From a bacterium (GTDB lineage: Bacteria > Patescibacteriota > Dojkabacteria > JAKAPS01 > JAJZLI01): a stretch of 49,952 nt of DNA. Each line of letters begins with the position of its first letter. Position 1 is the first letter of the stretch. The notes beneath the pieces were generated by a model. That model was not told where the DNA came from. It ran no database searches and saw only the letters and a program-made list of their open reading frames with translations. Positions 1 to 42,984 of this stretch are shown piece by piece. A program made the translations under genes and the position numbers. The stretch is taken from the NCBI GenBank assembly GCA_021785355.1, contig JAJYFR010000007.1, positions 1 through 49,952 on the forward strand, written 5' to 3'.

Positions 1-3000
1 CGATGAATCCTGGAACCTATTATTATGAAGTATTAGCACAAAATCCATCAGGCCAATCATTTCCATCGCAGTCAATATCAGTAACATTAAATACAGATGT
101 TACAGCACCTACAGGACTTACAGCAAGTGTAGGTACGTCAGGTGGTGTAGGATCAAATCTAGTAGCATCTACAACATATTATTATAAGATAACGGCAACA
201 ACATCACTAGGAGAGAGTACCGCATCAACGGAGGTATCAGCAACAGAGGGAACGACAGCATATCCGATAGCACTTTCATGGAGTGCAGACAGTGGAGCTA
301 CAGGATATAATATATATAGATCAACGACATCAGGAAGTGAAGTATTTCTAGCATCAGTAGGAAACACTACGAGTTATACAGATTCAGGCAATGTAGGACC
401 AAGTAGTAGTAGTCCTCCTACTAGTAATACAGCTCTAACGAATACAAATGAAGTATCCTTGAGTTGGAATGCAGTACAGGGTGCGAGTGAATATATAATA
501 TATAGATCAAACAGTACAAATTTCACTAATTCTGCAGAATATATATCTACAACAAATAGTTATACAGATACAGGAGTGCTTTCAACAAATCCTATTCCTG
601 TAGCTAATTCATATGCTACATCCATTACATATAATGGATACGTATATGAGGTAGGTGGTGTTAATGTTAATGTATATTATGCTCCCATAAACTCAAATGG
701 AACAATAGGTGTATGGAATACAACAACTTCGCTTCCAGCAGCTATTAATTCTGCAACGTCAGTAGAATACAATGGATATATCTACGAGATTGGAGGAGAA
801 AATGCTACAACTTTGGTTGCGACAGTCTATTATTCTCAAATTCATTCAAATGGAACACTTGGAACATGGAATACGACGACATCCCTTCCCGTTGCAATAA
901 TTTTTGCAACATCAGTAGAATATAACGGATATGTATATGAAATAGGAGGTACAACAACTTCAGGAGATGTGGCAACAGTATATTATGCTCAAATAAATAG
1001 TAATGGAACATTGGGGATATGGAATACAACAGTATCTCTTCCTATTACCATTCGTAGAGCGACAAGTATAAAATATATGAATAATATATATGTTGTAGGA
1101 GGAGATAACGGAGGTTCTGCATTGTCCACAGTATATTATGCTTCCATAAATCCGAATGGAACATTAGGTGCTTGGTCTATTACGAGTTCACTTCCTGTAG
1201 GTATAAATGATGCTACATTGGTAGAATATGGAGGATTCATTTATGAGATAGGAGGAGCTTTATATTATACATACAGTACTATATCTTCAATATATTATAC
1301 TCAAATATTGAGTAATGGTACTTTAGGTACATGGACAGCAACAACTTCTCTTCCTACTGCTATAGATGGAGCTACTTCAGTAGTGTATAACGGATACATA
1401 TATGAGATAGGAGGCTCTAATGGTGGCAATTTAGCTTCAGTGTACTATTTTCCAGTATCTTCTACGGGAGGAATATATGGAAATATATCAACAACAACTA
1501 CGAATGCAATAACAGTAACACAGGGTAATGGAGGGAGTGGAAATATATCCAATAACCTAACAGTAGGAGGGAGTCTATTAGTAGGAGGGAGTTCGATATC
1601 AGGAGGAAATATATCATTAACGAATGGAAGTGGATCTAATATATCGTCAACATCATCATTATCTCTGAATTCTACGAATTTTGGATTAAATATGGGAGCA
1701 GTAAATAACAATACCATAGGACAGGTAGGAGAATGGAATAGTACTACATCTTTACCTGAAGATATAATGTCTGCAACTTCAGTAGAATATAACGGGTATG
1801 TATATGAGATAGGAGGATTTATATTATCTGGTAGTACAATGACTGTATTGACTAATAACGTTGTTTATTCCCCAATTCAAAATAATAGAATTTTAGGATT
1901 ATGGAGTACAACCTCAAATATACCATCCGTAGTTTGTAGTGCAACATCAGTAGTATATAATGGATATATTTATGTTATTGGAGGTAGTAATGGAGGAGGT
2001 TACTGTGGGTCAGGACTTTTATCTACAGTGTATTATTCTCAAATAAATAGTAATGGAACACTTGGAGTATGGAATACAACAACCTCTCTTCCTATAGCTA
2101 CAGAAATTGCGACCTCAGTAGTATATAATGGGTATGTGTATGAAATTGGTGGTTGTATTTCTAGTCAATTTTGTACTAGTTTTTCGTCTACAGTATATTA
2201 TTCTCAAATAAATAGCAATGGAACACTTGGTGTATGGAATACAACAACCTCTCTTCCTATAGCTACAGAAATTGCGACCTCAGTAGTATATAATGGGTAT
2301 GTGTATGAAATTGGTGGAGTAAAAAGTCAAGGCATCACTCTTTCAACCGTAGAATATGCTCCTATTAATAGTAATGGAACATTAGGAGTATGGACAACCA
2401 CAACATCTTTACCTCAAGTTACGGATGAAGCTACATCTGTTGTATACAAAGGATATGTATATGAAGTTGGAGGCTCTTCAAGTCAAGGAAGTGCAGTTTA
2501 TAATACTGTATACTATTCTCAGATTCAGAGTAATGGAACACTAGGAGCGTGGACAGCAACTACTCCTCTTCCACAAGCAATAAGTAATAATTCTTTGGTG
2601 GTATATAAAGGATATATATATGAAATTGGAGGTAATAGTAGTTCTTCATATAGTTTAAACACAGTCTATTCTTCTCAAATTCAGTCGAATATATCAAACA
2701 TATTTAGTGTAACATCCAATAACAATGGTGTAATAACACCATTGCTGAGTATAGATCAAAATGCAAATCTTACTGTTAACGGAAATACGTTATTAGCCTC
2801 CTCAGATTTGAATGTAGAGGGCTTATCTACGCCTACGGGACTTACAATGAGTAGTAGTTCTACAGTAGGAGGATCAATGAATCCTGGTACCTATTACTAT
2901 GAAGTATTAGCACAAAATCCATCAGGTCAATCATTTCCATCGCAGTCAATCACTGTAACAAATACTCCTGTATCAGTACCAACAGGGCTTACAGCAAGTG

Positions 3001-6000
3001 TAGGTACATCTGGAGGTGTAGGATCAAATCTAGCTGCATCTACAACATATTATTATAAGATAACGGCAACAACATCACTAGGAGAGAGTACCGCATCAAC
3101 GGAGGTATCAGCTACAGAGGGAACAACAGCATATCCGATAACACTTTCATGGAGTGCAGACAGTGGAGCAACAGGATATAACATATATAGATCAACAACA
3201 TCAGGAAGTGAAGTATTTCTTGCAAGTACAACATCTACAAGTTATACAGATTCAGGTAGTGTAGCTCCAAGTAGTAGTAGTCCCCCTGCTAGTAATACAG
3301 CACTAACGAATACGAATGAAGTATCATTGAGTTGGAATGCAGTACAGGGTGCGAGTGAATATATAATATATAGATCAACAAACACAAGCTTTACTAATTC
3401 TGCAGAATATATATCTACAACAAATAGTTACACAGATACAGGTATACTTTCTACGACATCATTACCTGTAGCTACAGATGGTGCAACATCAGTAGTATAT
3501 AACGGTTATGTGTATGAGCTAGGAGGGTATAACGGGAGTGCCTATCTATCGAGTGTATATTATGCCCCAATCAATAGTAATGGGACCCTAGGCACCTGGT
3601 CTACTACAACCTCCTTGCTTCAAGCTATAGGTTTTGCTACTTCAGTAGTATATAACGGTTATATGTATGAGCTAGGAGGATATAATGGTAGTACTGAATT
3701 ATCAACAGTATATTATGCGCGGATAGAAAGTGGAGGAGGTATTGGTACATGGAATACAACAACAGTTCTTCCTCAAGCTGCAATGCAAGCAACATCAGTA
3801 GAATACAATGGATATATCTATGAGATAGGAGGTGCTATAGATGCAGTATATTATACTTCCATAAATTCTAATGGTTCGCTGGGTGCATGGACAGCAACAA
3901 CATCTTTATCTCTTCCTGTAGCTTCAGCAACATCTATAATATATAATGGATATATATATGAGATAAGTATAGGTGGAAATTCTTCTGTAGATTATGCTCA
4001 GGTAAAAAATAATGGAAGTCTTGGAGTATGGGTTCCAACAACATCTCTTCCTATGGGTGTATATGAATCAACATCTGTAGAATACAATGGATATATATAT
4101 GAGATAGGTGGAGGAATCAATGGAGATGCAGGAACTACAGTATATTATACTCAGATAAAAAGTAATGGAAGTCTTGGTATATGGCAATCTACTACCTCTC
4201 TTCCTGCTCCTACAAGTTTTGCTACTTCAATTGAATATAATGGATACATATATGAGATAGGAGGATATAATGGAAGTGTGCCTCTATCATCAGTCTACTA
4301 TTTTCCAGTATCTTCTACGGGAGGAATATATGGAAATATATCAACAACAACTACGAATGCGATAACAGTAACACAGAATAATGGAGGGAGTGGGAATATA
4401 TCTAATAACCTAACAGTAGGAGGAAGTATATTAGTAGGGGGAAGTTCAATATCGGGAGGGAATATATCATTAACGAATGGAAGTGGATCTAATATATCAT
4501 CAACATCATCATTATCACTGAATTCCACGAATTTTGGATTAAATATGGGAGCAGTAAATAACAATACCATAGGACAGGTAGGAGAATGGAGTTCTGATAC
4601 TTCTCTTCCTACTGCAACGGTTTTATCAACCTCAGTAGAATATAAAGGGTTCGTGTATGAGATAGGAGGTCAAGATTCCAATGGATGTGTATCCGCAATA
4701 TATTATGCACAAATCAATTCAAGTGGACAGATAGGATCATGGATAGCAACAACACCTCTTCCTCAAGAAGAAAATAGATTAAGCTCTATCGCATATGCAG
4801 GATATATTTATGCAATAGGAGGCAGTGCATGTAATGGCACATCTTACGCATGGGTATATTATGCCCCTATAAATTCTAATGGTTCTTTGGGTGCATGGGT
4901 CGCAACAACGTCTCTTCTTACTGCTGTATATAATTCAACATCAGTTGTATATAACGGGTATATATATGAAATAGGAGGATATACAACTACTGCTACAGCT
5001 ATAGTAGAATACGCTCCCATCAATAGTGGGGGAGGAGTAGGCACATGGACAGATACAACATCACTTCCTCAAGCTACATATTATGGAACTTCTGTAGAAT
5101 ATAACGGATATATATATGAGATAGGGGGAGAAAATAGTTCTGTATTATCAATAGTATATTATGCTCCAATAAATAGTAATGGAACATTAGGTACTTGGAA
5201 TTCTACGGTCTCACTTCCGCAATCTACATATGGAGCAACATCTATAATATATAATGGATATATATATGAGATTGGAGGAGTAAATGGTAGTGGAGCTATA
5301 ATATCAACAGTATATTATGCTCCAATAAATAGTGAAGGAACGATAGGTCCATGGAATGGGACAACTTCTCTATCTTATATTGTGTATTCAGCAACTTCAG
5401 TTGAATACAAAGGATATATCTATGAGATAGGAGGTTTGGGTAGTAATACCTTATCTTCAGTCTATTCCTCCCAGATCCAGTCGAATATATCGAATATATT
5501 TAGTGTAACATCCAATAACAATGGGGTAGTAACACCATTGCTAAGTATAGATCAGAATGCGAATTTAACAGTAAATGGAAATACGTTATTAGCCTCATCA
5601 GATTTGAATGTAGAGGGCTTATCTACGCCTACGGGACTTACAATGAGTACGAGCTCTAATATAGGAGGATCGATGAATCCAAATACCTATTATTATGAAG
5701 TATTAGCACAAAATCCATCAGGCCAATCATTTCCATCGCAGTCAATGTCAGTAACGGTAAACACACCAGTTACAGCACCTACAGGACTTACAGCAAGTGT
5801 AGGTACATCAGGTACTGTAGGATCAAATCTAGCAGCATCTACAACATATTATTATAAGGTAACTGCAACAACATCACTAGGAGAGAGTACCGCATCAACG
5901 GAGGTATCAGCAACAGAAGGAACGACAGCATATCCTATAACACTTTCATGGAGTGCAGACAGTGGAGCTACAGGATATAACATATATAGATCAACAACAT

Positions 6001-9000
6001 CAGGGAGTGAAGTATTTCTAGCATCAGTAGGAAACACTACGAGTTATACAGATTCAGGCAATGTAGCTCCAAGTAGTAGTAGTCCCCCTACTAGTAATAC
6101 AGCGCTAACGAATACGAATGAAGTATCATTGAGTTGGAATGCAGTACAGGGTGCGAGTGAATATATAGTATATAGATCAACTAGCACAAATTTCACAAAT
6201 TCTTCAGAGTATATATCCACAACAAATAGTTATACAGATACAGGAGTGCTATCAACAACATCACTTCCTGTTAATACATATTATGCAACATCTGTGGAAT
6301 ATGCGGGATTCGTGTATGAGATAGGAGGATCTTCTAATGGGAACACAGTTGCAACAGTATATTATTCACCTATAAACTCAAATGGGACAATAGGTACATG
6401 GAATACAACAACACCTCTTCCTCAAGCTACATATGATGCTACATCCGTAGAATATAACGGGTATATATATGAAATAGGAGGGTATACAACTACAACAGTT
6501 GCAACAGTATATTATGCACCTATTAACAGTGATGGAACACTAGGAGCATGGGCTGCAACAACATCTTTTCCCGTAACTATATCTGCTGCAACATCTGTAG
6601 TATATAATGGATTTATTTATGTGAGTGGAAATAATTCATCATCAGTATATTATGTTCTAATCAATAGCAATGGTACCCTAGGAACTTGGACAGAAACAAC
6701 TTCACTTCCTATATCTTTAGAGAGCTCAACATCGGTAGAATATAATGGGTATATCTATGAGATAGGAGGAGGTCCAAATGGAAATCAAGGATCTAGTGTG
6801 TATTATTCCCCAATAAATTCAAGTGGAACATTAGGTTCTTGGGAAGTAACGACATCTCTTCCTGTAACTATATCTGATGCAACATCTGTTGTATATAATG
6901 GATATATTTATGAAATAGAAGGGTGTATTAATACTGTTTATTGTATGATATCTGGAATATATTATGTACCAATAAATAGTAATGGTACTCTGGGAACTTG
7001 GACAGCAACAATCTCACTTCTTGCTAATAGATATTTAGCAACATCAGTGGAATATAATGGATATATCTATGAGATAGGGGGATATAATGCAAGTAGTGGT
7101 TATGTATCAACAGTGTACTATTTCAAAGCCTTACAAGAGGGAGGGTTATCACAGATAGTAAAGGGAAGAGTTCAGACTAGTGTAGGATTAACTCAGAGTA
7201 ATGGAGGAAATATAAATCTGTCGGGGAGTATGAATATAGGAGGAGGTCTGTCGGTTCTAGGACAGAGTAATTTTGGATCATCTATAAATTTAACGAATCC
7301 GAATAACACCCTTATATCAGCGGCCTCTCCTTTAGATATACAATCATCAGGATTTAGTATAAATCTAGGGAAGAATAGTGTTACATCCCCTCCTATATAT
7401 ACGATATCTTCATGGCCAACAACAACCTCTTTACCTAATACTACCTATGAGGCTACATCAGTTACATACAATGGATACGTGTATGAGATAGGAGGAATAG
7501 TATCTTCTGCTTCTACTATAGTAGAATATGCAGCTATAAATTCGAATGGAACATTGGGTGCATGGACAACAACTACTCCACTACTTACTGCTACATACGA
7601 TGCAACTTCAGTAGTATACAATGGATATGTATATGAAATAGGAGGGTATACAACATCAGCTACTACTGAAGTAGAATATGCACCAATAAATGGTAATGGG
7701 ACACTGGGTGCATGGAGCACAACAACACCTCTACCTCAAGCTACATATGTAGCAACATCTGTAATATACAATGGATATATCTATGAAATAGGAGGGTATA
7801 CAACATCAGCTACTACTGAAGTAGAATATGCACCTATAAATTCGAATGGAACATTGGGTGCGTGGAGTACAACAACATCCATGCTTAATAGTACATACAA
7901 TGCAACTTCAGTAGTATACAATGGATATGTATATGAAATAGGAGGGTATACAACATCAGCTACTACTGAAGTAGAATATGCACCTATAAATGGAGGAGGA
8001 AGTATAGGAGTGTGGAGTACAACAACATCTCTTCTTGATGCGACTCAACAATCAACTTCAGTGGTATACAATGGGTATGTATATGAGATAGGTGGGTGTA
8101 ATAATTGTACTGTTATGTCAACAGTAGAATATGCACCAATAAATGGTAATGGGACACTGGGTGCATGGAGCACAACAACACCTCTACCTCAAGCTACATA
8201 TGTAGCTACATCAGTAATATACAATGGATATATCTATGAGATAGGAGGGGTAAATACTAGTGCTTCAACAACCGTATATTATTCATCACAGTTAGTATCA
8301 TCATCTACTCCCGGTTACTTTAGTGTATCGTCAAATACGTCGGGACAATTTCAGGATATATTTTCACTAGATCCGTATGGGAATGCGATATTTGGAGGGA
8401 GTATAACAACGGGAGGTCCAGCTGCAGATATAGCAGAAGAGGTAATAGGTAAGGGAGTGAGTGCAGGGGATATAGTATCAGTGAGTGGAGCAAATACGAG
8501 TTCAAATAATATAAACAATTTCACAGCGATACCGACGACGCATGTATCATCGAATAATATGTTAGGAGTGATATCGACGGATCCAGGGATAATATTACAT
8601 CAGGAGAATATACCAGGAGCAGTACCGTTAGCATTGGCAGGAAGAGTATTAGTAAAGGTAACAAATTATAACGGGAATATAACAGTAGGGGATATGATAA
8701 CAGGATCTCAGTTTGGAGGGTATGGACAGAAGGCAACATCCCCTGGAGAGGTAGTAGGGATGGCTTTAAATAGTTTAAGTCCATCAACGCCAGGAGTAAG
8801 TAGTTTTACATATAATGGAGTAAGTTATCTTAGAGGCGAGATATTAATGTTAGTAAAGAATGAATATTACAATCCATTAGTATCAAGCATGAGTGTATTG
8901 AGTATGTCGGGAGGAGTATTAGATATATCGAGTAGTGTCAATATATCTGATAATTTAGGAATAGGCGGGAATGTATCAATAACAGGGCATATAATATCTA

Positions 9001-21782: not shown

Positions 21783-21809
21783 TTATAAAGGAAAGAGTAT
21801 TTCAACCTC
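21783..21809 (+). repeat. 27-nt direct repeat, copy A, downstream flank of the AbiEii pair
   Basis: Identical over 27 nt to 22908-22934. On the minus strand it spells the last eight codons and the stop of the other histidine kinase (EVEILFPL, stop), left as an orphan scrap 12 nt before the start of the degenerate kinase gene. Confidence 0.9.
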
Positions 21810-21972: not shown

Positions 21973-22599
21973 TTAAGAGTCTAGAAGTTTTTTAGATTCT
22001 AGAATTATGAAATTTTTTACATCTTGCCAATTAACAGGTTTTAATAATTGAAGATTTGAAGGTTTTTCTGCATTTTCAAAAAAGGCAAGACTTTTAATAT
22101 AATGGTATGTATTAAAATCATCAATTCCATATTTAGTAGGGAATTGATCAAAGAGTTCTTTAAGTGAAATATTAAATTTACAGATAAAATAAAGATCTAT
22201 AAAATCTTTTTTTAAACCTCTATCAGCTATTGCAAGAATCTTCATTAAACCTATATCTTTTAATTGTGCAATATTAATTCCATCTTCTTTTCTAAATACA
22301 TCAATTAGCTTATAAGGAAATCGGATAAAACTTATTTCACAATCATTATAAAATCCTCTTAGAGTAAAGTTATTTGTAGAAATATTTTGTAGATTTATGC
22401 CACTTTGATTAAGAGAGTATAGTAAATCTAAAGGAATGAACTCATCTTTTATAAAAAAATCTAGATCAAATGATACTCTATGTCCAATTTGCCATGCTAA
22501 AGCTGTTCCACCTGCAAGATAAAATTTGTCAATTTCCGGATTTTTCGTTAATAAATCCAAAGCTTTTCTTGCTTTTTTGTCAATGGCATTGTCAAACAT
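21973..22599 (-). CDS. AbiEii/AbiGii-type nucleotidyltransferase toxin
   Basis: 208 residues. The N-terminal nucleotidyltransferase core shows FYLAGGTALAWQIGHRVSFD followed by LDFF (residues 27-49), with G30/G31 and the metal-binding D45 and D47. The middle (LKDIGLMKILAIADRGLKKD FIDLYF) matches the AbiEii helical part. AbiEii-type enzymes act as toxins in type IV toxin-antitoxin and phage-abortive systems, by nucleotidyl transfer to tRNA in studied cases. The start overlaps the upstream partner by 52 nt. The whole pair sits between 27-nt direct repeats inside an otherwise signalling and glycan operon. Confidence 0.88.
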   Translation of the reverse strand: MFDNAIDKKARKALDLLTKNPEIDKFYLAGGTALAWQIGHRVSFDLDFFIKDEFIPLDLLYSLNQSGINLQNISTNNFTLRGFYNDCEISFIRFPYKLIDVFRKEDGINIAQLKDIGLMKILAIADRGLKKDFIDLYFICKFNISLKELFDQFPTKYGIDDFNTYHYIKSLAFFENAEKPSNLQLLKPVNWQDVKNFIILESKKLLDS

Positions 22600-22841
22600 T
22601 TTATTGGTTCTTGAATATTAAAATAATACTTCCAAAAATATCCTGTACGTTTAGATATTTCTGTTGAATTTTTTACAATTTCAATTATATCTTCTGATGA
22701 GTATAAAGAAAGAATTTTTTTTACATCTCTAAGATTTCCATGTTCTAAGACTCTAGAAATGATAAGATATTTATAAGTTTCAATATCCATGTCATTTACT
22801 CTGCTATCCCATAAATATTTTTTGAATTCTTTAGGTATCAT
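22548..22841 (-). CDS. Putative antitoxin partner of the AbiEii-type protein (DUF6922-like)
   Basis: 97 residues. It begins MIPKEFKKYLWDSRVNDMD, continues with a helical ILEHGNLRDVKKILSLYS-like part (here RVLEHGNL), then ISKRTGYFWKYYFNI and IKCL. This resembles small DUF6922-type proteins found beside AbiEii toxins in CPR genomes. It shares 52 nt with the toxin gene in another frame, a strong coupling signal. The assignment as antitoxin rests mainly on position and family resemblance from memory. Confidence 0.65.
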   Translation of the reverse strand: MIPKEFKKYLWDSRVNDMDIETYKYLIISRVLEHGNLRDVKKILSLYSSEDIIEIVKNSTEISKRTGYFWKYYFNIQEPIKCLTMPLTKKQEKLWIY

Positions 22842-22907: not shown

Positions 22908-22934
22908 TTATAAAGGAAAGAGTATTTCAACCTC
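22908..22934 (+). repeat. 27-nt direct repeat, copy B, upstream flank of the AbiEii pair
   Basis: This copy is the genuine 3' end of the intact histidine kinase gene (minus strand, last eight codons plus TAA). It is identical to 21783-21809; the offset is 1125 nt. Confidence 0.9.
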
Positions 22935-39217: not shown

Positions 39218-40381
39218 ATGGTTAAAAGAATTTTTTATTTTACAATTGCAAGTTTGAAGATGACATTTAGAAATAGATTCGCTCTATTTTCTTCTTTTCT
39301 ATTTCCAATTGCAATAATGTTTGCCTTTAGTTTTTATACACAAACATCTACTCCTAAGTTAAATATACAAATACTTTATAACCCTACAAGTAAAATTTTT
39401 GTAGAAAAATTAAAAAATGAACTTCAAAAAACTTCAAATGTAAGTGTTCTTAGTATAAATAAAAAATCTTCGGCACTCAAATCTTTAAAAAATGAAAAAA
39501 CAGATTTGATTATTAGTATTATTCCTTCGAAAAATAAAGTAATACAGCCTGTATATAACAGATATATATATCAACCAGCTCCTATATCTTCTCTGAAAGT
39601 AGGCGCGAGTAATTATAATGTAGTTTTCTATCTAAATCACTATTCTACAAATCTTTTTTATGAAGAGATATTCGTTACAAATATAGAGTATAATTTCTTG
39701 AAAAATAGTATCTCATCTTTAGGGATAAAATCTCCTTTTGTATTTAGACAACAGTTTATAAAAAATTCTCAAACATATAGTTATCTTGATTTTTTAATAC
39801 CAGGTATATTAGCTCTTTCTTTGATGCAAGGGATAATATTTGCAGTTATAAATATTATTGTAAATTATAAAGATTTAGGTGTTTTGAGGAGATTAGCAGT
39901 TACACCTCTTACAAAATCAGATTTTCTAGCATCCCTTACACTTACTAGATTGATCTTTGGATTGATACAAGTAGCTATATTAATATTTATAGCCTCAGTA
40001 TTTATTAAAGTAATTCCACAAGGAGGAATATTAGGCTTTCTTAACCTTGCAATTATAGTAATACTAGGCTCTTTAATGTTTGTAACACTTTCATTACTTA
40101 TATCATCAATTTCTAATAAAACAGAAACTGTATTCCCAATAGCAAATCTAATAACTTTGCCTATGTTGTTTCTTTCTGGAGTATTTTTTTCTGTACAAGG
40201 TTTGCCTGTATGGCTTCAAAATATAGTTCAATTTTTTCCATTAACGTATCTTGCAAATTCTCTAAGAGGTGTGTATGAACATGGATATTCTCTTTTTATA
40301 CTTAGGGGAGATATTATCGGTATGATAATTTGGGTAATTATCTTATTTGCTCTTAATGTTAAATTTTTTAAGTGGGAATAG
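39218..40381 (+). CDS. ABC-2 type exporter, permease subunit
   Basis: 387 residues. An N-terminal helix (about 20-38) is followed by a large extracytoplasmic domain (40-185). Five more helices follow, starting YLDFLIPGILALSLMQGIIF, with the family segment LRRLAVTPLTKSDFLASL and FPLTYLANSLRGVYEHG near the end. It pairs with the ATPase 4 nt upstream. The last 49 nt of coding sequence, up to the stop, are duplicated at 42239-42287 beyond the three-gene island, so the island seems to have entered at this gene's 3' end while preserving it. Confidence 0.94.
   Translation: MVKRIFYFTIASLKMTFRNRFALFSSFLFPIAIMFAFSFYTQTSTPKLNIQILYNPTSKIFVEKLKNELQKTSNVSVLSINKKSSALKSLKNEKTDLIISIIPSKNKVIQPVYNRYIYQPAPISSLKVGASNYNVVFYLNHYSTNLFYEEIFVTNIEYNFLKNSISSLGIKSPFVFRQQFIKNSQTYSYLDFLIPGILALSLMQGIIFAVINIIVNYKDLGVLRRLAVTPLTKSDFLASLTLTRLIFGLIQVAILIFIASVFIKVIPQGGILGFLNLAIIVILGSLMFVTLSLLISSISNKTETVFPIANLITLPMLFLSGVFFSVQGLPVWLQNIVQFFPLTYLANSLRGVYEHGYSLFILRGDIIGMIIWVIILFALNVKFFKWE
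40332..40380 (+). repeat. 49-nt direct repeat, left copy (permease 3' end)
   Basis: Identical to 42239-42287 at 48 of 49 positions (only 40346 T versus 42253 C differs). Offset is 1907 nt. It encodes the permease C-terminus ending NVKFFKWE and runs to the middle of the stop codon; both copies keep a stop (TAG here, TAA in the other). Confidence 0.95.
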
Positions 40382-40419
40382 TCTAATAAATTTAGTAGAT
40401 ATTATAAATTTCAATTTAT

Positions 40420-40428
40420 TGCTATAAT
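40420..40428 (+). promoter_or_regulatory. Extended -10 promoter of the three-gene island
   Basis: TGCTATAAT matches the extended -10 consensus TGnTATAAT and ends 10 nt before the ATG at 40439. The island is thus independently transcribed with a leader of about 4 nt. Confidence 0.6.
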
Positions 40429-40438
40429 ATATCTACAT

Positions 40439-41002
40439 ATGAATAAGAAGAAACTTGGAGTATATATTAACTTTATTGGTAGTATAAATGAAAAGATTTC
40501 TAGTTTACTTATCTCCTTGTTAACAGAACAGTTAAGCTCTGGAGTAAAGTTATATAGGATAAATATATCTTCAGTTGGAGATATTGTTTTTTATGCAGCA
40601 TCATTATTCAATTTTATATCAGGATTAAAAGATGTTATTGTGAATACTCATAATATTAGACAAACAGATTCAACCTCTAATTTATTATTTTTCTCTGGAA
40701 CAAAAAGAATTGTAAATAGATCATTTGGATTTTTTTTACATTCACTAGAAATAATTATACAAAGTCAAATCCCTTTATTTTTAGAATTTTTAAAAGAAAA
40801 GGTAGAAGGGGAGGAAAAAGATGAATTAAAAATGGCAAAGATTATTTTTAATAAGATTAATAAGAATATAGATGAAATTTTAAAAATGTTCAAAGAGAGA
40901 AAGACATATTCAGCTCAAGAATCAAAAAAATCAGGTTTTATATTAGATATTAAAGATTCTGTAGGTTTTTCAGATATTCCTATTTATACTATTACTAATT
41001 AA
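40439..41002 (+). CDS. ClpP/crotonase-fold protein (ClpP-like serine peptidase or derivative)
   Basis: 187 residues, the size of a ClpP subunit. Similar landmarks appear in order: LYRINISSVGDIVFYAASLF (ClpP: INSPGG and the following helix), NIRQTDSTSNLLFFSGTKRI (the nucleophile-elbow region, with S78 at the Ser position), FGFFLHS with H101 at the catalytic His position, and KTYSAQESKKSGFILDI (ClpP: FLSAxEAxEYGLVD). The oxyanion GG is GD, and the usual Asp before the last motif is not evident, so activity is uncertain. There is no signal peptide. It is the first gene of a compact island with an ATPase and a STAS-like protein, 12 nt apart. Confidence 0.7.
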   Translation: MNKKKLGVYINFIGSINEKISSLLISLLTEQLSSGVKLYRINISSVGDIVFYAASLFNFISGLKDVIVNTHNIRQTDSTSNLLFFSGTKRIVNRSFGFFLHSLEIIIQSQIPLFLEFLKEKVEGEEKDELKMAKIIFNKINKNIDEILKMFKERKTYSAQESKKSGFILDIKDSVGFSDIPIYTITN

Positions 41003-41014
41003 TCCTAAATAATA

Positions 41015-41893
41015 ATGATACAAATTAATAAAAATAGTAATACATTATTGAGAATAAAAGAACTTATAAATAATTTAAGATATTTGGAAGGTATATCTCA
41101 AAATTCAAATATAAATATAGCTTCTTTTTCATTTATTACTCCATTATCAATAACTCCAATAGCTTCTATAATTAATAGTAAATCTTTAAAATATATTTAT
41201 GAAGATAATAATAACTCTTATCTAGAAACAATATTATTTCCAAATGGAATAAATATGTATGATAATATTTTTACAAATAAAACTTATATCCCTATTATAC
41301 ATTTAGATATTAACCATTTATCTGAAAACGAATTAAATTCTCAATTAAATTTACTAAATGATAATTATATGAGTATATTAAAAACCAATATTATTACAGA
41401 GAAAAGATTTATAAAATTAATTACAGAAACAACAATTAGTTATTTTTTAGGAGAAATGTTTGCTAATATAGAAGAACATTCAAAGGCTAAAAATATTTAT
41501 ATCTTTTCACAATATTGGCAGAAATCTAATTCATGTGAAATTTGTATTATTGATGATGGTCAAGGTTTATATAATTCTCTGAAAAATGCAGGGAGAAATG
41601 TTATTAATAGTAAAGATGCACTAAGTAGTATATTAGAAAGAGGTTTATCTGCAAAAAATGAATTTGGAGAAATACAAAGAGGAACAGGTTTGAAAACCAC
41701 AAAAGCATTACTAATTAATAATGAACTTAAAGGTGAATTTTTTATTATGTCTGGAAATGCGGCTTATTTTCAATCAAGTAAAGATAAAGGAATATTTATT
41801 AACTTGTCAAATTATTCATGGCAAGGTACAATTATAATGTTAAAATTTAAAAGTCCAATTAATCAATTTAGTTTATATGATTATGTTAAGTAA
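41015..41893 (+). CDS. GHKL-type ATP-binding protein
   Basis: 292 residues. The N-terminal ~130 residues have no recognisable domain. A histidine-kinase-like ATPase domain follows, with an N box FLGEMFANIEEHSKAKNI (N151), a G1 box IIDDGQGL (D180 to G184) and a G2 box RGTGLKTTKALL (G223 and G225). There is no dimerisation or phospho-accepting His domain and no membrane helix, so it is not a sensor kinase; it is closer to the RsbW/SpoIIAB-like serine-kinase group or a stand-alone GHKL ATPase. It overlaps the STAS-like gene by 17 nt. Confidence 0.85.
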   Translation: MIQINKNSNTLLRIKELINNLRYLEGISQNSNINIASFSFITPLSITPIASIINSKSLKYIYEDNNNSYLETILFPNGINMYDNIFTNKTYIPIIHLDINHLSENELNSQLNLLNDNYMSILKTNIITEKRFIKLITETTISYFLGEMFANIEEHSKAKNIYIFSQYWQKSNSCEICIIDDGQGLYNSLKNAGRNVINSKDALSSILERGLSAKNEFGEIQRGTGLKTTKALLINNELKGEFFIMSGNAAYFQSSKDKGIFINLSNYSWQGTIIMLKFKSPINQFSLYDYVK

Positions 41894-42212
41894 AAATATT
41901 GATTTATATAATTGTTTTAATTCTTCAAGTCTGATAACACGTAAATCTGCAAGTATTATTTTTGATGAAATATCTAAAATTCAAGAGGATAATATTATTC
42001 TAGATTTTCATGGCATAAAATATACTTCTCGCTCATTTCTTAATGAACTTATTAGTAAAGATAGTAAATTTCATTTATTAAATAAAAATGTTGATTATGT
42101 TAATATGTCTTCTGATATTAGTAAATTGTATAATTTAGTGAAAAATAGTTCTGGTTTGAAAAGTAGTGTCACATATCCAAGTTTGGCAAAAGCTAAAACA
42201 ATAACTATATAA
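41877..42212 (+). CDS. STAS-like domain protein (DUF4325 type)
   Basis: 111 residues. The pattern SLITRKSASIIFDEI, then NIILDFHGIKYTSRSFLNEL, and a C-terminal strand and helix (VDYVNMSSDISKLYNLV) fits the STAS-like DUF4325 family, which often sits beside GHKL ATPases. In partner-switching systems an anti-anti-factor with this fold is phosphorylated on Ser by the ATPase; S52 and neighbours in YTSRSF occupy the equivalent turn. The start overlaps the ATPase gene by 17 nt. Its stop lies in a 16-nt palindrome (AATTTGAGTTCAAATT, 42211-42226). Confidence 0.78.
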   Translation: MIMLSKNIDLYNCFNSSSLITRKSASIIFDEISKIQEDNIILDFHGIKYTSRSFLNELISKDSKFHLLNKNVDYVNMSSDISKLYNLVKNSSGLKSSVTYPSLAKAKTITI

Positions 42213-42238
42213 TTTGAGTTCAAATTAAATGTTTTATA

Positions 42239-42287
42239 GGGTAATTATCTTACTTGCTCTTAATGTTAAATTTTTTAAGTGGGAATA
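42239..42287 (+). repeat. 49-nt direct repeat, right copy
   Basis: Right boundary of the three-gene island. It repeats the permease 3' end, and on the minus strand encodes the last residues (FPLKKFNIKSK) and the stop of the convergent membrane protein. Confidence 0.95.
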
Positions 42288-42984
42288 AGAGTAATAATAC
42301 AAATATAGAAAGAAATAACGAAAAGATTATCAAATCATATCCCCATCCTAGAATAAGTATTATAGGTGTGATGAGTATTAGTGTGAAATTATCTGATCCA
42401 TTAAATGATAAAGATTCTGTAATGGAAAGTATTCCTGCAAGTATCATAGTGGGTATATAATTTATATTCGAAGCTATAAATATAAATGTAGTTGATATGA
42501 AAAATATAAAAGTTCCCATTATAGACTTGTTATCATTAAGTATATTGTATTGTTTGATAGGTATATTTATTCCTGTAAGTGCTGCAAGAGAATCTGAGAT
42601 ACCTGTTACTAATAAAGCTTCTCTTATAAGATATGTTTGCTTATAAAAGATGAGGGCTATTATTATTAGAGCTAATGCATAAAATATTCCTCCCCAATTT
42701 CCTTTCTTTGACCTACTATCATTTAGAGAATGAAAAATATGTAAATATTTTGAAACTATTACAGATATTAAAGACTCAATTACAAGTAAAATAAAAAAAA
42801 ACTGATTAAGTGTAAAAGTCGCTAATATAAAAAGAATACTAGTCTCTATATGAGTTAATTTTCTTAAATACTCTTTAGATTTATTTGTTTTACATTCTTT
42901 TTTAAATAAAAATTCAGATGTTAAATAAACAAATATAAAAAACAGATTAAGTATTATAAGATATACTATATTAGTATGTAACAT
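42250..42984 (-). CDS. Dolichol/phytol kinase-like or CDP-diglyceride synthase-like membrane protein
   Basis: 244 residues with about seven membrane helices. The family signature is clear: RKLTHIE near residue 41, SDSLAALTGINIPIKQY near 130-146, and NDNKSIMGTFIFF near 150. These match the SEC59/VTE5/phosphatidate cytidylyltransferase superfamily. It likely phosphorylates a polyprenol or makes an activated lipid for glycan assembly; sequence alone does not decide which. The C-terminal 12 codons lie in the 49-nt repeat, so before the island arrived it probably overlapped the ABC permease gene convergently. Confidence 0.82.
   Translation of the reverse strand: MLHTNIVYLIILNLFFIFVYLTSEFLFKKECKTNKSKEYLRKLTHIETSILFILATFTLNQFFFILLVIESLISVIVSKYLHIFHSLNDSRSKKGNWGGIFYALALIIIALIFYKQTYLIREALLVTGISDSLAALTGINIPIKQYNILNDNKSIMGTFIFFISTTFIFIASNINYIPTMILAGILSITESLSFNGSDNFTLILITPIILILGWGYDLIIFSLFLSIFVLLLLFPLKKFNIKSK

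Follow-up and report, generated by a model that had tools for sequence, protein, structure and literature searches.

A recombinase-less accessory cassette bracketed by a duplicated gene junction in a Dojkabacteria genome

A cassette of 1858 bp (40381..42238) is inserted between two convergent genes in the window, by which we mean the whole 49,952-nucleotide stretch of Dojkabacteria DNA analysed, and the 49-nt direct repeat that brackets it preserves both gene ends. The cassette is not a one-off, as the same genome holds at least five other small islands bracketed by repeats. Our best reading is that these are a variant of the recombinase-less accessory cassettes already known in kind, and that a new insertion pathway is possible.

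Results

A cassette in the overlap of two convergent genes

The cassette follows an ABC-2 permease gene (39218..40381, plus strand; PF12698, 98 bits) with orthologues in both same-genus genomes (G001 and G002). The left copy of the repeat (40332..40380) codes for the permease C-terminus and ends the gene with TAG. The right copy (42239..42287), at a spacing of 1907 nt, provides the last codons of a convergent membrane protein gene on the minus strand (42250..42984) that overlaps the permease gene in the relatives. On the plus strand the right copy reads NVKFFKWE and then TAA, a native flank that is the same in both relatives. The two copies are identical at 48 of 49 positions. The initial annotation had described a 49-nt direct repeat with one mismatch at a spacing of 1907 nt, the left copy completing the permease and the right copy encoding NVKFFKWE plus a stop and the C-terminus of the convergent gene; the alignment and the reading frames confirmed both descriptions. 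The convergent gene, which it had called polyprenol-kinase-like, has no Pfam match.

We searched the 883-kb assembly for further copies of the repeat, allowing up to 3 mismatches over a 30-nt core, and found none. Ten third-order Markov versions of the window, with its first 9 kb excluded, contained no exact direct repeats of at least 22 nt at spacings of 0.4–6 kb. Diverged internal repeats form long tracts in paralogous genes at window positions 1-8300 and at C1:90000-100000.

Neither same-genus relative has the cassette at this locus. In both, the permease gene lies directly next to the convergent gene and overlaps it by 30 nt. The initial annotation had proposed looking for such an empty site in related genomes, and it is present in two of two. 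The same annotation had pictured the one-copy state as two tightly convergent genes; they are indeed convergent, but with one copy they would overlap by 39 nt rather than merely abut. The 49-nt repeat spans this whole overlap except for the final base of the permease stop codon; the cassette supplies this base as G (TAG for TAA). An insertion at this overlap without a duplication would have truncated both proteins.

The single mismatch, at position 15 of the repeat, is T in the left copy and C in the right. Both relatives carry T, the ancestral state; the derived C is synonymous (Lys) in the convergent gene that the right copy serves. The copies differ from each other by 1 nt, from G002 by 8–9 nt and from G001 by 12–13 nt. 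They are each other's closest relatives, showing that duplication of the overlap took place in this lineage after its split from G001 and G002.

Genes of the cassette

Three genes lie between the copies, as the initial annotation had stated, and in agreement with it none of the three encodes a recombinase. The first encodes a ClpP-like peptidase subunit of 187 aa (40439..41002, plus strand). Its Pfam match is weak (CLP_protease, E 1.3e-3, below the cut-off for that family); it also matches PDB chain 9uxt_A, 'Clp protease' (E 9.5e-10), and in the 9uxt alignment the putative nucleophile Ser and catalytic His positions are roughly in register. The second encodes a 292-aa GHKL ATPase of the histidine-kinase/anti-sigma type (41015..41893, plus strand; Pfam HATPase_c_2, E 4e-3, below cut-off), with the motifs EMFANIEEH, DDGQGL and RGTGLKT. 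Its homologues occur in phages and in other Patescibacteria, and a search of genome contigs yielded no close relative. The third encodes a STAS-like DUF4325 protein of 111 aa (41877..42212, plus strand; PF14213, 26.9 bits against a cut-off of 23), whose SRSF motif is common to the cassettes at three loci elsewhere (L111-L113). A GHKL ATPase gene is thus followed by a STAS-like DUF4325 gene, which makes up the two-gene cassette scored below; phages also carry GHKL/DUF4325 pairs.

PADLOC models matched none of the three genes. The cassette is probably a defence-type accessory. The GHKL and STAS proteins may form a kinase/antagonist switch over the ClpP-like peptidase, perhaps directed against phages. 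Literature searches on DUF4325 function, on long target duplications in bacteria and on mobile-element repeats in Patescibacteria turned up no account of this arrangement.

Other islands of the genome

We compared the genome with itself and scored near-identical repeat pairs around small islands. Such pairs bracket a VapBC-like pair (contig C7, 95-nt repeat), an AbiE island (C6, 93 nt), an RHH/YafQ pair (C3, 27 nt) and a gene of 413 aa (C1, 84 nt). The window itself holds a second island. Its 27-nt repeat copies (21783..21809 and 22908..22934) are 100% identical, the right one being the 3' end of a histidine kinase gene, and between them lie an AbiEii-type toxin gene and a DUF6922 gene (21973..22841, minus strand; PF08843, 46 bits, and PF21956, 51.2 bits). 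The corresponding empty site is found in G002 at C17:2082/2098. The repeats of these other islands measure 27–95 nt, are unrelated in sequence and derive from the ends of neighbouring genes.

An unbiased synteny scan of 471 neighbour pairs conserved between this genome and G002 revealed 14 inserts in this genome, three of them with boundary repeats (scores of 91, 54 and 50, against a null maximum of 30). All three repeat-bearing inserts sit where the G002 gap is at most 13 nt. Two of these sites are convergent overlaps, one of 30 nt and one of 39 nt; the latter holds an AAA+ ATPase gene (C13:44864-46172) bracketed by a 53-nt repeat. Boundary repeats were absent from all 10 inserts in gaps of at least 27 nt, and from the 8 inserts of G002. 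The association between repeats and tight junctions gave a Fisher's exact value of ∼0.011, computed by hand on few events for a comparison that we picked after seeing the data.

Arrays of toxin-antitoxin (TA) pairs with repeated 30–70-nt elements between them, resembling cassette arrays, were seen at C2:23419-27300, C8:7292-9167 and C13:76957-79679. We kept these out of the evidence, as they may represent cassette arrays of a different kind. Contig C3 (335 kb) has a GC content of 20.7%, versus 25–30% in all other contigs, yet carries genus-conserved genes.

Cassettes elsewhere in the phylum

The DUF4325 family occurs in 3 of 86 genomes of the class and 68 of 380 genomes of the phylum. Counting best matches only, with thresholds of our own choosing and in draft genomes that include few strain-level pairs, we found ∼41 GHKL/STAS cassettes. 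In the 307 kb around these cassettes, all eight repeat pairs that passed a fixed strength threshold bracket the cassette, with none elsewhere. About four fifths of the cassettes (∼33/41) have no strong bracketing repeat; in those, the duplication was either not obligatory or has since decayed.

Several of the cassettes that we inspected have long repeats on both sides. The repeated stretches, whose host genes we named by our own reading of the translated ends, are of several kinds: the 3' ends of polA (54 and 98 nt, in two families), of an M16 peptidase gene (113 nt) and of a DUF47 gene (76 nt); the 5' ends of a DUF167 gene (52 nt) and a GH1 gene (54 nt); a stretch spanning a promoter and a start region (77 nt); a terminator-like hairpin stretch (69 nt); and the 3' end of an apparent tRNA gene, identified by sequence only (L234, 117 nt). 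Repeats of 5' ends occur at L195, L220 and L238, and also at C1:14431 in this genome. AbiEii loci, which carry another cargo, behaved partly alike: among 30 loci, L263 has an 86-nt repeat (94% identity), and there are a few weaker pairs.

In two different families, at L201 and L207, the polA 3' end is the insertion point of MerR-GHKL-STAS cassettes. In the outgroup G208, a mutM-like gene directly follows polA. When the two polA copies of G108 were compared with an outgroup, most changes in the copy joined to the gene proved to be synonymous, and in the remnant most were non-synonymous. This is the pattern that a target duplicated on the spot would show once one copy had decayed.

IS1634-family elements and recombinases of the genome

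Four IS1634-like insertions in this genome are flanked by target duplications of 88 nt (C5:25535-25622 with C2:27611-27698), 106 nt (C3:126-231 with C6:125-230), 124 nt (C8:11324-13183) and 284 nt (C6:76958-78992 with C5:1-99), three of the four being read across contig ends. IS1634-family insertions probably explain those contig breaks. Repeats of 8–514 bp have been reported for IS1634/IS1549, with no model of how they are made (PMC2266710). Long target duplications of variable length are seen at the cassette (49 nt) and at the IS1634 copies (88–284 nt). Those at the IS1634 copies support the view that long duplications can arise in this genome, not that IS1634 moves the cassettes. We also considered whether the islands carry IS1634 ends (CCTGACTTCCCCAAT), and this was ruled out, as the island ends do not match them. 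The left copy of the AbiE island (C6:125-230, 1660-1752) coincides, give or take a few bases, with the 106-nt IS1634-like target duplication.

A genome-wide search with two Pfam models, PF00589 and PF00239, returned only three recombinase genes, at C3:158735, C3:79111 and C1:28003; the last corresponds to a large serine recombinase-like open frame of 586 aa (C1:28003-28314). A single att site serving one recombinase was rejected as a candidate, since the 49-nt repeat is unique in the assembly and the repeats of the other islands are unrelated to it.

Discussion

Proposed insertion with a long target duplication

On balance we lean, by a narrow measure, towards a cassette that inserted without sequence specificity, with a long and variable target duplication and with selection for intact neighbours. 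A small accessory cassette entered where two convergent genes overlap, and a stretch of 49 bp, longer than the whole overlap, was duplicated in this lineage and left the ends of both genes intact; the empty site and the recurrence of this layout with unrelated repeats are established as well. The duplication may have been made at insertion, the target strands being opened tens of bases apart and then filled in. Because the genome has almost no intergenic room, the only insertions to survive would be those whose duplication covers a gene junction, and the repeats would hence seem to lie 'exactly' at gene ends.

We found no common motif among the cassette termini or the repeats, either for the islands of this genome or for the cassettes of the phylum, which is at odds both with an integrase att site and with a transposon that has terminal repeats. 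The unrelated termini and repeats, together with the location of repeats at 3' ends, 5' ends and one apparent tRNA end, argue against a site-specific recombinase and for nonspecific insertion. Selection among target-duplicating insertions accounts better for the intact gene ends. A point against nonspecific insertion is that the polA 3' end was used in two different families, a hint that some targets are preferred.

The main rival is one-sided homologous recombination, which we consider unlikely. On DNA uptake, an incoming gene end with its attached cassette would recombine homologously, the other side would be joined illegitimately, and the recipient's own gene end would become the second copy. 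No cassette-encoded enzyme is required for this, the repeats are mostly gene-boundary sequence, and repeated use of polA would be expected were the cassette to move together with that gene. Some copies also differ by 13–20%, several of the differences being synonymous (L195, L207). Against this, the window copies are 48/49 identical and are sisters to each other with respect to the relatives, and the pattern of change at L207 fits a duplication followed by decay.

It is improbable that an IS1634-family transposase moved transposase-less cassettes in trans and left long target duplications behind. The genome does carry IS1634-family elements with target duplications of 88–284 nt, these lengths overlap those of the island repeats, and one copy at the AbiE island almost coincides with an IS1634 target duplication, but the island ends are unlike the IS1634 ends and unlike each other.

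We give an equally low rank to a trans-acting recombinase that would have integrated the cassette at a specific site, as for a satellite or a CIME-like element that restores the 3' end of a gene. The initial annotation had likened the island to a site-specific element, a view that was not supported: the repeats are unrelated to one another, range from 27 to 117 nt and occur at gene 3' ends as well as 5' ends, and at the 3' end of an apparent tRNA gene. An empty site and a restored 3' end are present at the cassette; an adjacent recombinase and a shared att core are absent. Att-like repeats of 27–117 nt at gene 3' ends and at the apparent tRNA 3' end (L234) do speak for this mechanism, as do the recombinases encoded in the genome, two of the tyrosine type and one of the large serine type. 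Against it stand the presence in a single genome of at least six repeats that are unrelated and have no shared core, the repeats at 5' ends (L195, L220, L238 and C1:14431), and the specificity of each repeat found for its own host gene.

An assembly artefact or a chance repeat is very hard to credit: the genome is a 13-contig draft, but both junctions lie within one 50-kb contig, the predicted empty site occurs in two independent relatives, similar structures recur in unrelated genomes and no such repeat arose in shuffled sequence.

More tentatively, and with doubts that outweigh our confidence, we suggest that Patescibacteria gain defence and TA cassettes by an undescribed, sequence-nonspecific insertion pathway with target duplications of ∼27–130 bp. 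If this were true, long duplications would admit foreign genes to a near-gapless genome with both neighbours unbroken. Ultra-compact genomes offer little room for insertion yet gain defence cassettes; a long target duplication would explain how, as it would render insertions close to gene ends harmless. The repeat signature would also be a simple way to spot recently gained cassettes. The question ties in with that of the mechanism by which duplications as long as 514 bp arise at IS1634-type elements (PMC2266710).

Comparison with known systems

Fragment IFa of Methanothermobacter phage psiM100, annotated as inserted, contains a GHKL gene (ORFB) that matches the one in our island, along with further genes. 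Phage psiM2 matches just 28% of the psiM100 stretch that we queried. A bracketing repeat was sought around IFa and no clear one was found, only a one-sided tandem array of 125-bp repeats; in this IFa differs from the cassette described here.

IS1634 and IS1549 resemble the cassettes in inserting with long direct repeats of the target that vary in length. Unlike these elements, the cassettes have neither a transposase nor the elements' inverted terminal repeats.

CIMEs and recombinase-less satellites flanked by attL and attR carry a small cargo between direct repeats, restore the 3' end of a gene and contain no recombinase. The cassettes are like CIMEs in their cargo between direct repeats, their restored 3' end and their lack of an internal recombinase; they differ in having no common att core, repeats at 5' ends as well, and many unrelated repeats per genome.

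The minimal mobile elements of Neisseria are accessory cassettes without mobility genes, exchanged between two conserved neighbour genes, and they spread via homologous recombination in the flanking genes. Unlike for the cassettes described here, a duplicated gene end is no part of their definition; the likeness is that both are small accessory cassettes, free of mobility genes, set between conserved neighbours.
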